Source of the DNA: a virus
Virus record (IMG/VR): IMGVR_UViG_3300020202_000707
Span: 1-49,609 of that record
DNA: 49,609 nucleotides
Direction: 5' to 3' (one strand)
The notes beneath the pieces were generated by a model that had not been told where the DNA came from, did no database searches, and saw only the letters and a list, made by a program, of their open reading frames with translations. Positions 18,286-49,609 of this stretch are shown piece by piece (the first letter of the stretch is position 1; each line of letters opens with the position of its first letter). The translations under genes and the position numbers were made by a program.

Positions 18286-20411
18286 ACACCGCTCGGCGCA
18301 ACCTCATTCGACAGCTTCTGTGAGATGCCTGCGGGAGATGTTGGTTGATCGGTCGAGGGGACAACTGTCTGCGCACCTGGCATGGGCGCTTGCTGTTGGA
18401 TACCAGCCTGCATTTGCGCGGGGACAAAGAGCGATTGCGAGCCATCCACGAACCAACCGTCAGGGATGATGTCGCGCGGGTCTTTATCGTAGAGCGAAAT
18501 AATCTCCTTGATGGTCTTGCCTGCGGTGAGGTGATCGAGGGAATTCGGCATGCCGGTCTGCTGGAGCACCATGCGCTCCTGTGCGGCTTGCGCCATTACA
18601 GGGATCAAGAGATTGTACATTTCGAGCTCCTGAGCCTTTTGAATCTGTTTCGACGGGGAGAGGAGCGACTGGGACTTGACGGTGATGACCCCTTCCCATG
18701 GCAGACAGTCGGGTTTAATGCGGAAAAACTGTGTGTCCTCGGTCTCCATGAGGTTTCCCTTCTCGTCCTTGTCGAGGTTGAGGGGAAATTCGCGGTACAC
18801 CTTGGCTGTGAAGGTTTCTTGAGGCATGCCCGTTGTCTCGTCGAGGACCGCTTCCTCACCATTCATCGCGGGCGTACGCTCATAGAGCTGCGGATCACCC
18901 TGAATTTCCTTTAAATAATCGTCGATAAGGCGGGAATCAGTGATTTCGTACGTTTCTGGTATGGAATAGAGGATCTGCATCAGCGAAATGGTGATGTAGC
19001 CCTCGTTATTGAGCGCTTCGAGGATGTTATCGAGGGGATTTTTCATGCGCTTGAGCGCGCTTTCCTTCGCCTGGGCGATTTCAAAGGCAGTCTTACCCGT
19101 CACTTGGCCTAAAAGCGGGTCGGTGATGCCAGACGCTTCGTCCACATCCTTGCGGAACATGTCGATGCCAAGGAACGCCTCCTGACCGGGGCCTGGCACT
19201 TCGAGCCAGTTGACGTTCTTCGGGTCGAGCACCTGCTTTCCAACACCCGGTGCAATGGAAATGCTGCCCGTATCAGTGAGTGACTGGGTGCCTTGGTAGA
19301 AGAACATCTTGTAGATCGAGAGGGTGAGCTGATCGACCGTCATGTTGCGAATGCGATCGAGCATGGACTGGTCGTAACGGATGCTCTCGTAGATACCGAT
19401 ACCGTACGGTGACTCTGCGTGCCGCAGATTCCAGTAGGTTTGCCAGAGCGAGAGGCGCTTTACACCCTTCGTGTCAGCGATCGGGAGTGGTTCGATGATA
19501 ATCGGCACCCCGTTCGCAATGACCATGAAGAGGTCTTTCTGTTTGCTTTCATAAAAATACACCTCAACGAGCTGCTCGTTTTCGATGCGCTTCGTGGCGC
19601 CTCGCGCATTGTGTGAGACCGTTTCGTCGGTGTTTCCGCCTGGTATGACGTAGGCTGTGCGCTTGTACTTACTGTACTCTGCCTTGAACGTATCGAAATC
19701 GTATACCTTGCGCCAGCACCAGTCCTTGACGGAGTACTCGTTGTTCGGCTTCGCCATGTCGTCGATCCAGACGTTCCGTGGATCGAGGTTCTCACGCATG
19801 ATGTCGTTGTACTCGACAACATCTTTCTCTTCGTACTCGGAGTTCTCGGGGTTCTCTGCGTTGTAGCGTTTCAGAACCTTCACCTTTCGCGTGAGGTGGA
19901 GCGGGTACGTACGCGCACAGGCCCAACCGTACTTTGCGAGGTTAAACACAAACAACCGCAGCTGCGGCTTCGATTTCGCATACTCCCACGATCGCTCGTA
20001 GAGCTGTTTGATGATCTCGTTTGTTGCCTGGTATTTCTTCGTTGTTGGCGTGAGAACTGCTGAGGGGTTCTGATCGACGAGGATGGATAGGGCGGTCTGG
20101 ATTTTGATGTACGGATTGGACTGCGATATATCGGACTGCCAATCCGACGAACCGAGCTGCACGAGCGAGCCGCGCCACCCCTTCGTCTCATCAGTTGCAA
20201 CAACCTTCTTGCCTTTGGATTTGAGGCGGTGGGGAATGTAGTCCCGGTCTGCTTCCGCCCAGAGCGCATCGAGGTCGAACCCGTAGTGGTCCTTGCGCAC
20301 TTCCTGGAGTTGCGCAATGCGCTTTACGACAAACTCAAAGTCAGCTTTCTGTGTGTCGTTGAGTTGGTCTTTGGAGAATGAGCCTTCTTTGGCCTTCTTA
20401 GACTTTGCCAC
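18282..20411 (-). CDS. Portal protein
   Basis: 709 residues, the size of P22- or podovirus-type portals. Typical features are the N-terminal charged helix, the DYIPHRLKSKGKKVVATDE region, a W-rich SLVQLGSSDWQSDISQSNPYIKIQ wing entry, the long stem and crown-like helices (about 440-500, KTAFEIAQAKESALKRMKNP), and a Gln/Pro-rich tail. The portal forms the dodecameric ring through which DNA is packaged. It lies after the terminase genes. GTG start, 6 bases after a TGCTAGAAT box. Confidence 0.75.
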   Translation of the reverse strand: MAKSKKAKEGSFSKDQLNDTQKADFEFVVKRIAQLQEVRKDHYGFDLDALWAEADRDYIPHRLKSKGKKVVATDETKGWRGSLVQLGSSDWQSDISQSNPYIKIQTALSILVDQNPSAVLTPTTKKYQATNEIIKQLYERSWEYAKSKPQLRLFVFNLAKYGWACARTYPLHLTRKVKVLKRYNAENPENSEYEEKDVVEYNDIMRENLDPRNVWIDDMAKPNNEYSVKDWCWRKVYDFDTFKAEYSKYKRTAYVIPGGNTDETVSHNARGATKRIENEQLVEVYFYESKQKDLFMVIANGVPIIIEPLPIADTKGVKRLSLWQTYWNLRHAESPYGIGIYESIRYDQSMLDRIRNMTVDQLTLSIYKMFFYQGTQSLTDTGSISIAPGVGKQVLDPKNVNWLEVPGPGQEAFLGIDMFRKDVDEASGITDPLLGQVTGKTAFEIAQAKESALKRMKNPLDNILEALNNEGYITISLMQILYSIPETYEITDSRLIDDYLKEIQGDPQLYERTPAMNGEEAVLDETTGMPQETFTAKVYREFPLNLDKDEKGNLMETEDTQFFRIKPDCLPWEGVITVKSQSLLSPSKQIQKAQELEMYNLLIPVMAQAAQERMVLQQTGMPNSLDHLTAGKTIKEIISLYDKDPRDIIPDGWFVDGSQSLFVPAQMQAGIQQQAPMPGAQTVVPSTDQPTSPAGISQKLSNEVAPSGV

Positions 20412-26443: not shown

Positions 26444-26472
26444 AATAGAAACCCCCGCCTTTTGAGCGGGGG
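26444..26472 (-). terminator. Intrinsic terminator after the primase-like gene
   Basis: Minus strand: CCCCCGC / GCGGGGG stem with loop TCAAAAG followed by TTTCTATTT. A second small hairpin (CCCCA / TGGGG) lies between it and the stop at 26499. Confidence 0.75.
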
Positions 26473-26498
26473 CCACCCCCAGTGACTGTGGGGTAATT

Positions 26499-27059
26499 CT
26501 ACACTACCCGGAACAACTTCCGTAACGCGTCGGGATCAGCGCGTTCAACCGGCTTGTGTTCGCTGAAGAGCAGCAGAGGTTCCTGATCTGCCTTGGTCGC
26601 TAAACCAAGGGTGCAAATCAGCGATCCATCCGATGCCCTGAGCGGGAACATGACGCGTTCCTTCTCAGAATCGAAGCCGCCCTGGATTGCCGCAAGTGTG
26701 CTCGCGATACCTAGCATCTCAATGACCGGGTGATCGAGCGCTAGTGACTGCGCTTTTTCCTGCCGGGGCTGGGGGGAACTGCGAGTGAGGAACTGCGCAG
26801 CCAGTTTGTCTGCGGCCTCACGTTGTTTGATTCCCAAACAGTGTGCGACTAACGCCGTTGCATCGTCGCCCCGTTTGCTGCTCGCGAAGCACTGGAATCC
26901 CTTCTGGAGATTCACACTCAGCGCACGGTCATCGCCCGAGGTGCAGTACGGGCATTTGAACCGGAGCTGATCGCCCTTTCTTTCAGAGGGTTTGAGCTTC
27001 AGGTAGCTGATGGCGTCTGCGAGAGAGACGCCGTTTCTCACGTCATCGAATACGGACAC
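26499..27059 (-). CDS. CHC2-type zinc-finger primase-like protein
   Basis: 186 residues. SLADAISYLKLK (12-23) then CPYC (about 36-39) and GFQCFASSKRGDDATALVAH (53-72) match the CHC2 zinc domain of DnaG-type primases. The C-terminal part, with VMFPLRASDGSLICTLGLA, resembles the start of a primase catalytic region but no full TOPRIM motif is seen, so it is a short or partial primase. GTG start with AAGGAG. It probably recruits or primes at the phage origin with host enzymes. Confidence 0.7.
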   Translation of the reverse strand: MSVFDDVRNGVSLADAISYLKLKPSERKGDQLRFKCPYCTSGDDRALSVNLQKGFQCFASSKRGDDATALVAHCLGIKQREAADKLAAQFLTRSSPQPRQEKAQSLALDHPVIEMLGIASTLAAIQGGFDSEKERVMFPLRASDGSLICTLGLATKADQEPLLLFSEHKPVERADPDALRKLFRVV

Positions 27060-40125: not shown

Positions 40126-40902
40126 TCATATATTTGCACGTGAAGGCTGTGGAAAACTCATCGCCGTTTCAATGAAGTCATGAAACCCCACGGTGTTGGG
40201 AATGTACCCGGCGTACCGCGCAAGAACGGCGGCGTCTTCATACGTGCATCCCCGGCCCTCTTTCTCCATGAGGAGACAGCGGTTGCGGAGTTTCGGTTCC
40301 AATTCTGACAGCGTGTACACGCCAGCCATTAAACGGTTGTCGAGCACGAGGAGATCGTGAAAGGGACGGGCGTAATATCCAAAGTCCGGAACGATCACCT
40401 GGTCCTTCGCCTGCATGATGAGGAGGGCTCCTAAGATACGGGCATCACGTCCGAGCTCGGCGCGGTTGAGCCTGGCAACAGTCGAGCTGTGTTTGCGGAA
40501 GGAGAAGTTGGTGGGCTTGGTCAGGACGTCTCGCATTAAGGGAGACAAGAGCAAGCCATTAATGACAGCGGTCGCATCCTCCTCACCTCGTGGGCCGTAG
40601 GGACTAACGGGGAGCTTATCAATCGACCTGCCGTGCATGAGCTTCCAGGTCAGGGCGACCATGCCGTCTCGGGCTGCTAGCGTGGTTTCCCCTTTTCCAT
40701 CGTAGAGGACGGTGGCGAAGTCCCACGCCCCTTGAAATGACATGGGAAGGGGATTGAAGCTGTGTGTGAAGGGGGAGAACGCGGTGGCGCGGTCGTACTG
40801 CTTTAAAAAGGTCTCAGCGATTGGCCCATCATCAATTAAAAGAAATCCCGGTTTCCCCGGGTCAAGGGTTTTATCTGCAAATCCGATCTGGAGGAGATTC
40901 AT
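40126..40902 (-). CDS. Unrecognised protein, distant ATPase-core-like pattern without Walker A
   Basis: 258 residues, no signal or membrane helix. The start PGFLLIDDGPIAETFLKQYD (18-37) then FSPFTHSFNPL (about 41-51) resembles the part after Walker A of TraG/HerA-type ATPases, and LLVLDN (about 189-194) could correspond to Walker B. The TraG-type protein at 28958 has the matching VIVIDGKGTWAKEL and INPQDL...LNMF pattern. If related, this is a truncated or degenerate ATPase; low certainty. Confidence 0.4.
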   Translation of the reverse strand: MNLLQIGFADKTLDPGKPGFLLIDDGPIAETFLKQYDRATAFSPFTHSFNPLPMSFQGAWDFATVLYDGKGETTLAARDGMVALTWKLMHGRSIDKLPVSPYGPRGEEDATAVINGLLLSPLMRDVLTKPTNFSFRKHSSTVARLNRAELGRDARILGALLIMQAKDQVIVPDFGYYARPFHDLLVLDNRLMAGVYTLSELEPKLRNRCLLMEKEGRGCTYEDAAVLARYAGYIPNTVGFHDFIETAMSFPQPSRANI

Positions 40903-40983: not shown

Positions 40984-41109
40984 TCATTGTAACCCCCGGC
41001 GTACGTTAGGAGGGAACGGCAGGAAGAGGGAGCACGAGCAGTGTTGGCAGCGCCAACACGCGTCCCATTCATGAACGGCGCGATCATGTCCGCACGTGAG
41101 GCACGGCAT
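40984..41109 (-). CDS. Zinc-ribbon miniprotein, 41 aa
   Basis: 41 residues. CLTCGHDRAVHEW (3-15) and CWRCQHCSCSLF (18-29) form a clear zinc site of the CxxCGHxxxxH...CxxCxxCxC type. The ATG lies 6 bases after TGGTACACT (41116-41124), so it is likely leaderless. It borders the structured RNA candidate. No role is known. Confidence 0.55.
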   Translation of the reverse strand: MPCLTCGHDRAVHEWDACWRCQHCSCSLFLPFPPNVRRGLQ

Positions 41110-41115
41110 CGCGGG

Positions 41116-41124
41116 AGTGTACCA
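41116..41124 (-). promoter_or_regulatory. Extended -10 promoter for the zinc-ribbon gene
   Basis: Minus-strand TGGTACACT then CCCGCG and the ATG at 41109. Confidence 0.45.
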
Positions 41125-41546
41125 GAAGGAGGAGAAGATGCCCGCCCTTCCGTGAATGAGCCCGCGACTTCCATGCTTGTGGGAAGTGTCCTGAATAGGA
41201 CAAATCCCGGAGGGAAACGGACACACACAAGGCGAGGACTATCGGACGCGACCGGAGGGAGTGTCCGACTAGCCCGCAGGCTTGGGGGTGTCCGAGGTGC
41301 ATGGAATGGAATGGAATGCGGAAAGGGCAGGAACAAGTAACCCACAGAAAAAGCATGGAAGTCGCGGGCGGAGGCCCACACGGAAATGAGCGGAAATGCT
41401 TGGAGAACAAGGGTTTTTGGCGAACTGAAAAATACACCGACAGAGAGTAATGCGACGGAAGAGGCGACGGTGTAGAACGGGGAGAGAACAAAACCGCGAG
41501 GGAACTGCTTCCAGGAAGGTCGGTAACGTACCGTAAGCAGGGACGC

Positions 41547-41574
41547 AAAAACCCCTCCAGTGAAGGAAGGGTTT
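41547..41574 (-). terminator. Intrinsic terminator inside the structured region
   Basis: Minus strand: AAACCCTTCC / GGAGGGGTTT stem with loop TTCACT, then TTTTTGCG. It would stop transcripts coming from the HNH gene at 41704 or from the TATAAT at 41617. Confidence 0.6.
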
Positions 41575-41616
41575 CGGCGTAGTTAGGTCGGACCAGCATT
41601 ACTGCTGATGTCTCGA

Positions 41617-41622
41617 ATTATA
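41617..41622 (-). promoter_or_regulatory. -10 box TATAAT (short minus-strand transcript)
   Basis: Perfect -10 with TTGGCC about 15 bases upstream. A transcript from about 41610 would carry the CAGCA/TGCTG hairpin and end at the 41547 terminator, giving an RNA of about 65 bases, or extend if read through. Confidence 0.35.
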
Positions 41623-41703
41623 CACGGAAACGAACAAGGCCAATCTCTAGGCGCTGGCCGTACCAGGGTTCCCTAGCGCACTGTATGGGGAACTGAGTGA
41701 AGA

Positions 41704-42402
41704 TCAGGTGAGTTGCATGTTCGACCTAACGCTTTGAATGAACAATGCAGTTTCTCGAATCATGTGTTTCTTAGTCCCATATCGTTCGTGAAATTCGAGA
41801 TGGTGTGGACCGCAGAGCGGAATAAGGTGCTCGTCTGGTTCTCTACCAATCTTCGAATAGTCCATATGATGGAGTTGTATATGCGCGGCAGTCGAACACG
41901 CGGCACACCTTCTTGAATGTTTCTGGTAGTACTGGTTCTTGCGGGTCTCCCACATCGGGGAATTGATGTACGTGTCGTACTGAAGCCGTCGAGGAGACGG
42001 CGCGAGTTTATTCTTCTTCTGCCGATTCAGCTTGCGTTGATGACGTAGAGCCCTGCGGCACGAATTCACATAGTTCATGAACGCATGGCGGGCTTCTCCC
42101 TCGTATTGCTCTGAAACCGTACGGCACTGCTTCTTGGAAAGAGCGGTGATCTTTTCGTGTGGCCAAACAACCCGTATTTGTTGAACGAGTTCGCGCAGCC
42201 GCTTTTTTCGAGCCTTCTTGGCGGAAAGAGCGGACGGATTACTCACATTAAGAAATGTTCGCGCGCCGCCAGTTTGTTTCGCTTTGTAGGGTTTGGAGAG
42301 AGGACTGTTCTCGTTGAGAGAGGAGAATACATCACTAGGCTTTCTATTCTTAGCTAACTTCAATGCCTTAGCTTCTATGTATGCATTTGTTTCTTTTACC
42401 AT
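41704..42402 (-). CDS. HNH endonuclease with basic N-terminal region
   Basis: 232 residues. Lys/Arg-rich helices up to about 140 (RRALRHQRKLNRQKKNKLAP), then YINSPMWETRKNQYY, CAAC (about 171-174), IQLHHMDYS, EDHLIPLCGPHHLEFHERYG-like core with ELIPLCGPHH (about 196-205). This is a zinc-bearing HNH. It lies between two structured non-coding blocks (42403-42568 and 41125-41703). Probably a mobile or packaging-linked nuclease. Confidence 0.82.
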   Translation of the reverse strand: MVKETNAYIEAKALKLAKNRKPSDVFSSLNENSPLSKPYKAKQTGGARTFLNVSNPSALSAKKARKKRLRELVQQIRVVWPHEKITALSKKQCRTVSEQYEGEARHAFMNYVNSCRRALRHQRKLNRQKKNKLAPSPRRLQYDTYINSPMWETRKNQYYQKHSRRCAACSTAAHIQLHHMDYSKIGREPDEHLIPLCGPHHLEFHERYGTKKHMIRETALFIQSVRSNMQLT

Positions 42403-42568: not shown

Positions 42569-42593
42569 AAAAAGCTCGCAGTGAAGCGAGCTT
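42569..42593 (-). terminator. Intrinsic terminator after the 30-aa gene
   Basis: Minus strand: AAGCTCGC / GCGAGCTT stem with loop TTCACT, then TTTTTGCG. Confidence 0.8.
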
Positions 42594-42684
42594 AGAGCGA
42601 TGCGTCGATTATGACGTTATTACTCACGCGGACGATACAGACCGCACGAACAATAACCTCATTATCATAATCGAAGAAACGCAT
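42592..42684 (-). CDS. Small protein, 30 aa, leaderless unit
   Basis: 30 residues (MRFFDYDNEVIVRAVCIVRV), beta-rich. The ATG lies 6 bases after TGCTACACT (42691-42699) and the stop sits on the terminator at 42569. A promoter, a start and a terminator fit together, so this is a tight one-gene unit. Confidence 0.55.
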   Translation of the reverse strand: MRFFDYDNEVIVRAVCIVRVSNNVIIDASL

Positions 42685-42690
42685 ATAGCT

Positions 42691-42699
42691 AGTGTAGCA
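42691..42699 (-). promoter_or_regulatory. Extended -10 promoter for the 30-aa gene (leaderless)
   Basis: Minus-strand TGCTACACT, 6 bases to the ATG. No near-consensus -35. Confidence 0.5.
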
Positions 42700-42763
42700 T
42701 GTCGATTTCGTGAACTCACAAGTTCTTCATTATGGGGATAACTGCATTGACGGACATCTGAAC

Positions 42764-42772
42764 TGCTACAAT
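42764..42772 (+). promoter_or_regulatory. Extended -10 TGCTACAAT overlapping the plus-strand start
   Basis: The plus-strand box contains the first two bases of the ATG at 42771, so it would promote a transcript that begins inside the frame. TTGACG lies 14 bases upstream. Either the true start is an internal ATG or another promoter is used. Confidence 0.35.
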
Positions 42773-43061
42773 GTCAACAGCACCCCAGAGGAAAAGACCC
42801 CCGCAATCCTCAGCTCAATCAAGCAATGAAAACTTCTCCTCTCTTTTTATGCGATTGCTCGCCTTTGGGGTGCCAATTTCAATGAAGTACGCAATCAGCA
42901 ATGCTATTTGTATGTCGTGTAGCTACGTGTTCGCCACAGTGGACATGTACTACATCAAACCGCAGGACGCGAAAAATTATCCCCCTTCGATTTGCAAGAA
43001 ATGTAAGGAAGTGCAGTGGGCTATTGCTGACTTGGAGAAATCGGGGATTCCGCCGTTCTAG
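42771..43061 (+). CDS. Small CxxC protein on the plus strand
   Basis: 96 residues if started here; internal ATGs at residues 27 and 38 are possible. MSCSY and ICKKCKEVQW give two Cys pairs, like a zinc ribbon. It overlaps the convergent gene at 43021 by 41 bases. Start uncertain because the promoter box overlaps it. Confidence 0.5.
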   Translation: MSTAPQRKRPPQSSAQSSNENFSSLFMRLLAFGVPISMKYAISNAICMSCSYVFATVDMYYIKPQDAKNYPPSICKKCKEVQWAIADLEKSGIPPF

Positions 43062-49404: not shown

Positions 49405-49556
49405 AGAAATTTGCGGAGCATGTGCCAGTAGAGAGTGAGCCGCCGTTTCACCGGCCATTTATACTCGGACAAAACGAAGGACCGGTGGGCGTACATGGCG
49501 GGACGACACGTTGGACACCAACAGTGGTACTGCGGAAAACGGTACTCTAGGCGCAT
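49395..49556 (-). CDS. Small Cys-rich protein spanning the circle junction, 53 aa
   Basis: 53 residues from an ATG inside the transketolase N-subunit end (10-base overlap, copy in the right-hand repeat) to a stop overlapping the next ATG by 8 bases. Contains HCWCPTC (about 11-17) and a basic, aromatic C-terminal helix (KWPVKRRLTLYWHMLRKFL). Coupled to both transketolase genes. Could be a zinc-binding or membrane-touching accessory protein; no family is recognised. Confidence 0.5.
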   Translation of the reverse strand: MRLEYRFPQYHCWCPTCRPAMYAHRSFVLSEYKWPVKRRLTLYWHMLRKFLCI

Positions 49557-49609
49557 AGCTCCTGCTTAGCGTTCTCGTAATCCTCATCGGAAAGGTTCTT
49601 GTAGTGCCA
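49484..49609. repeat. Terminal repeat, right copy (identical to 2-127)
   Basis: Second copy of the 126-base overlap. It includes the last 21 codons, counting the stop, of the transketolase N-subunit gene that is complete at 65-829. When the ends are joined, that gene is followed directly by the small ORF at 49395-49556 and the transketolase pyrimidine-domain subunit. Confidence 0.95.

Follow-up and report, generated by a model that had tools for sequence, protein, structure and literature searches.

Results

We found that the gene-free block at positions 41110-41703 of the viral record IMGVR_UViG_3300020202_000707, analysed over its whole 49,609 bases (the window), contains one compact fold, about 240 nt long, set within a purine-rich noncoding stretch. 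The observations support a real structured noncoding element and, as far as sequence searches can tell, it is a singleton, unlike any catalogued RNA. Beyond its fold, rarity, composition and lack of known relatives, which were observed directly, we infer its transcription, strand, ends and role. In the reading that we prefer, at a probability of about 0.35, it is a lineage-specific structured element that would be expressed as a stand-alone plus-strand RNA of about 440 nt (about 41110-41550) and would serve in early-region control. Such a transcript would be antisense to the surrounding operons and would act by itself or with a bound protein.

A rare inverted repeat frames a compact fold

An earlier note on this DNA had described a perfect 17-bp inverted repeat with 174 bases between its arms. 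The repeat was present, but it proved to be perfect over 19 bp with 172 nt between the arms. Across the whole window no other perfect inverted repeat within 500 bp reaches 13 bp, and the chance expectation for a perfect 19-bp pair at a spacing of up to 200 is about 4 × 10^-5 (3.7 × 10^-5), in agreement with the view that it exceeds chance. The collinear helices that had been noticed outside (TTCCGTG/CACGGAA) and inside (GTGGG/CCCAC) the repeat were both part of the minimum-energy fold. The resulting rod would comprise about 31 base pairs in three stretches, displaying a head of three hairpins with A-rich loops. Long perfect repeats were also seen in two relatives: one of 20 bp around a short ORF, with structured flanks (L111:9531-9908, genome G021), and one of 16 bp with 146 nt between its arms (L117:3228-3405, genome G009).

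The region was folded on both strands, as had been suggested. For 41140-41390 the values were far below those of shuffled sequences (plus strand z -6.2, minus strand z -7.2), and none of 150 dinucleotide shuffles was as good. The head without the rod (41178-41351) still folded well, with z-scores of -5.3 (plus) and -4.65 (minus) against 150 dinucleotide shuffles, and the core ranked first in a fold scan of the whole window that was done at reduced depth. With DNA parameters the fold was strong as well (z -8.2). Next after the block in fold strength came 26451-26680 (z -5.1), where the minus strand has a terminator-like hairpin of 9 bp near 26465.

Ornate structure had been proposed across all 594 nt, and this did not hold. 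The segment 41383-41545, which contains the proposed CTGCTT...AAGCAG junction, folded like its shuffles (z -0.4 on plus and -0.8 on minus; 50 and 32 of 150 shuffles as good), and 41580-41735 was modestly folded (z -2.9 on plus). Since structure outside the core of about 240 nt is weak, the block is not a 600-nt ornate RNA. The hairpin at 41553-41571 carries a T5 tail on minus and reads as a minus-strand terminator. The purine richness of the plus strand was borne out: on that strand no other 440 nt of the genome are as rich in purines as the block (65.8%, z 5.2), the bias continues to about 41550, and about 50% of its unpaired bases are A on plus. A-rich unpaired bases are usual in structured RNAs. 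The features are collected in Table 1.

Table 1. Features of the block and of its immediate neighbours
Feature	Position	Strand	Basis or remark
Small Zn-ribbon-like ORF	40984..41109	-	Begins at the end of the block; sequence
Purine-rich noncoding block that a plus-strand RNA is proposed to span	41110..41550	+	Composition; predicted ends
Significantly folded core (outer helix, rod, head), about 240 nt	41147..41386		Shuffle z and window scan
Left arm of perfect 19-bp inverted repeat (rod)	41160..41178		Sequence comparison within the window
Head inside rod: three hairpins, A-rich loops on plus	41179..41350		Fold
Right arm of perfect 19-bp inverted repeat (rod)	41351..41369		172 nt between arms
Terminator-like hairpin, T5 tail, end of the HNH transcription unit	41553..41571	-	Loop TTCACT and tail as at 42585
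Exact TATAAT box, possible weak promoter	41617..41622	-	Sequence; no standard -35 box at 16-18 nt
HNH endonuclease-like gene	41704..42402	-	Adjoins block; matches to PHROG 8060 and 8048

The block lies between late and early genes

The window codes for terminase, portal, capsid, integrase, ERF, SSB, an M23 endolysin and sugar genes. Its ends carry a direct repeat of 126 bases (1-127 versus 49484-49609, shifted by one base, so that the last 126 equal bases 2-127), and therefore the genome is probably circular and complete at about 49.5 kb; the record is classed as linear despite this repeat. In cellular genomes, the closest relatives of its terminase come for the most part from Chloroflexota and from bacteria with small genomes, Shapirobacteria among them, and thus the host probably belongs to the Patescibacteria or the Chloroflexota. 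Shine-Dalgarno sequences are absent before the start codons of all genes of the window, which may point to the host group.

The block most likely sits where the late (lysis) genes of a temperate phage meet its early region. Phages often place regulatory elements between lysis genes and early genes. The description of 41110-41703 as gene-free was correct: a search for proteins that would fill it gave no family or protein match for the long minus-strand ORFs inside, and the Zn-ribbon-like ORF, itself without a match in a family search, starts just beyond. A search for close viral relatives of the HNH protein and of the neighbour protein at 40126-40902 found none. The neighbouring genes, described as all on the minus strand, nearly are; the exception is a plus-strand ORF at 42771-43061 that bears CxxC and is probably a gene, because the closest early-region relative, L211 (ERF 67% identical), has a Zn-ribbon-type ORF at the same convergent place. 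A consensus promoter scan of the region returned no promoter, including none at the minus-strand TATAAT box, and neither a promoter nor a terminator was found for the block on the plus strand.

Known families and homologues

Rfam scans gave no family for the window at gathering scores and chance-level matches only for the block at E up to 5, with GOLLD, ROOL and introns included; a tRNA search of the window found none. The statement that the block matches neither GOLLD nor ROOL thus stood. The Intron_gpI model had no match in the block, and the same scan did find a group I intron in the capsid gene of relative L118. Inserts of about 0.2-0.9 kb interrupt the capsid genes of G004, G012, G021 and G018 (L107, L104, L112 and L118, respectively), of which only that of L118 fits the group I intron model, the others being without an Rfam family.

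No homologue of the block was found by blastn in phages and plasmids, in 50 viral records reached via terminase, or in 16 whole genomes. A covariance-model search in phages had been proposed, and it returned no homologue either: model R1, built on the head as a single plus-strand sequence, found none in 380 + 400 bacterial genomes of two phyla, in the viral records or in about 1.8 Mb of loci, a result of limited force, since the model rests on one sequence and the large sets were strictly filtered. In IMG/VR, three exact-pattern scans yielded 24 stretches, all chance matches without further similarity; the best of them, L299, lies inside a protein gene and was rejected.

Structured blocks and leaders in related phages

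Genome G008 has structural genes in common with the window (terminase 62% and capsid 76% identical). Directly after its endolysin and holin genes it carries a gene-free block of 572 bases (L101:9310-9881), in the order of a terminator, a TATAAT box, a 20-bp rod with a T tail and further structure; the block also has a possible pseudoknot. The more distant relative G039 has 534 noncoding nt after a TATAAT box (L209:5632-6165; z -9.0; no Rfam family), in which the 5' segment has two alternative pairing partners around a terminator hairpin. Both follow one layout in gene sense: a TATAAT box comes first, then a rod or hairpin bearing a T tail, then another 350-430 nt of structure, and finally a gene. 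G037 has a short leader that contains a rod and a T6 tail, and it shares the TTATCAACT repeats and the promoter with G039. In L211 a short leader precedes the first early gene and a second gene-free block lies further on. A structured gap of G008 at 18706-19274 was rejected since it contains an HNH-like ORF, and L211:4146-4553 was rejected as a counterpart of the block because it has no common sequence and only a modest fold.

The window itself has a leader at 42572-42700 on the minus strand, a long rod followed by a terminator (z -5.5 to -5.9); its G-U pairs number 5 on minus, whereas plus has 0. It probably leads the early operon and lies behind a TTATCCCCA box (42733-42741), which L211 has as well. 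None of the blocks or leaders of the relatives showed sequence similarity to the window block. As a yardstick we took four leaders marked by a promoter or a T tail: they have 4-5 G-U pairs in gene sense versus 0-2 on the opposite strand, and their gene-sense energy is lower by 4-13 kcal/mol.

Strand and nature of the block

The earlier note had likened the purine-rich plus strand to structured RNAs, and composition indeed favours the plus strand for the block, by its purine content and by its share of unpaired A, which compares with 44-47% on the gene sense of the G008 and G039 blocks. The energy is lower on plus as well, at -189.5 kcal/mol versus -179.8 kcal/mol on minus (lower by 8 for the core). 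The strength of the core and of the rod-less head, first in the window, the lack of a protein match for internal ORFs, and the presence in relatives of other large structured noncoding blocks beside early promoters are further support for a plus-strand RNA. Against it, no plus-strand signal for starting or ending transcription was found, the strands are equal once composition is corrected for (core z -7.67 on plus and -7.87 on minus), the unpaired-A rule misjudges the strand of the 42572-42700 leader, and the lack of homologues means that there is no covariation. Whole-block G-U counts (12 versus 11) do not separate the strands. The minus strand is indicated instead by the terminator at 41553-41571, by the TATAAT box, by gene order and by the gene-sense leaders of relatives. 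They would fit a structured leader on that strand, a somewhat unlikely reading in which the block would be a piece of a long early-operon 5' region (promoter, leader rod, terminator, distal structured domain, first gene) split by the HNH gene, and would use attenuation or antitermination to tune how often transcription reads through into the Zn-ribbon operon. The core would then lie downstream of a terminator and the HNH gene would be a cassette between two terminators, which in fact flank it and share the loop TTCACT and similar tails; the layout of G008 and G039, the leader at 42572-42700, the upstream TATAAT box and the Zn-ribbon ORF beginning downstream all agree with this. Yet the minus strand is 66% pyrimidine, whereas the blocks of G008, G039 and L211, read in gene sense, are about 50% purine, a terminator stands between the TATAAT box and the core, and sequence similarity to the relatives' blocks is lacking. 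Purine content and energy likewise weaken the block as a plain minus-strand counterpart of that of G008.

G-U pairs make up only 1 of 79 pairs of the core on plus and 3 of 75 on minus, compared with 11-13% in shuffles, and for the plus-strand RNA this count, below both the shuffles (11%) and the four leader rods (4-5), hints at DNA. Near-pure Watson-Crick pairing would suit a DNA role, which is possible because G-U pairs are nearly absent from both strands of the core, unlike in the four leader rods. The block might thus be a hairpin element acting as single-stranded or cruciform DNA, for example as a replication or priming site; the DNA-parameter fold and the asymmetric base composition of the strands agree with it, but we consider it unlikely. 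DnaA-box-like sites are no more frequent than chance predicts and none falls inside the block, the octamer GTGTCCGA, repeated in the head, occurs in the window at chance level, and the only skew change around the block is its own. An origin of the type marked by a DnaA-box cluster or iterons was sought at the block and not found. It is more doubtful still that the block is functionless, the outcome of an inverted duplication that arose recently within a noncoding gap and folds well by accident. Perfect arms are the expected trace of such an event, and the element is confined to a single genome, the search of related viral records having given no homologue; a single duplication is nevertheless insufficient, because it explains neither the significant fold of the rod-less head, made of several different hairpins, nor the purine bias reaching to about 41550. 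We regard the three functional readings as close together, the plus-strand RNA appearing, with modest confidence, slightly ahead.

Discussion

ROOL is a homo-oligomeric RNA complex. GOLLD is often found close to tRNA genes (PMC12286853). Like GOLLD and ROOL (PMC12286853), the window block is noncoding, phage-borne, intergenic and strongly folded, but it differs from them in having no Rfam match (E up to 5), no tRNA nearby and no homologues found, and in that only about 240 nt are significantly folded. The G008 and G039 blocks resemble it in size, strong folds, lack of an Rfam match and a place beside early-region promoters, and G008 also in its structural genes and its position after the lysis genes. 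They differ in sequence and in being gene-sense; their -10 box is clear, their G-U content is normal and their purines are balanced. One could suppose that the early-region start of this lineage bears large structured RNAs of constant size and build whose sequence is fully replaced, in other words an unrecognised class that evolves very fast, to which the window block would belong as a member that has diverged or switched strand; we consider this improbable.

Put-like leaders are stem-loops on the transcript just 3' of an early promoter, and suppress termination in cis. At the block there is a minus-strand TATAAT box but no consensus promoter, and a terminator intervenes; 42572-42700 fits better, and put-like leaders do seem to be present there and in relatives. 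The block shares with the HK022 put RNA and other early-leader antitermination elements its stem-loops in noncoding DNA and possibly a location where the early region begins, but is much larger and lacks a mapped promoter (PMC9378689).

Fold strength by itself settles neither the strand nor the choice between RNA and DNA; sharper guides are the G-U content and those relatives in which a promoter can be seen. As a DNA site, the block would be a candidate control or replication site. As an RNA, it would be a large structured phage RNA beyond all Rfam families, from phages whose hosts are hardly cultured, with promoter-bearing counterparts in relatives that can be tested.
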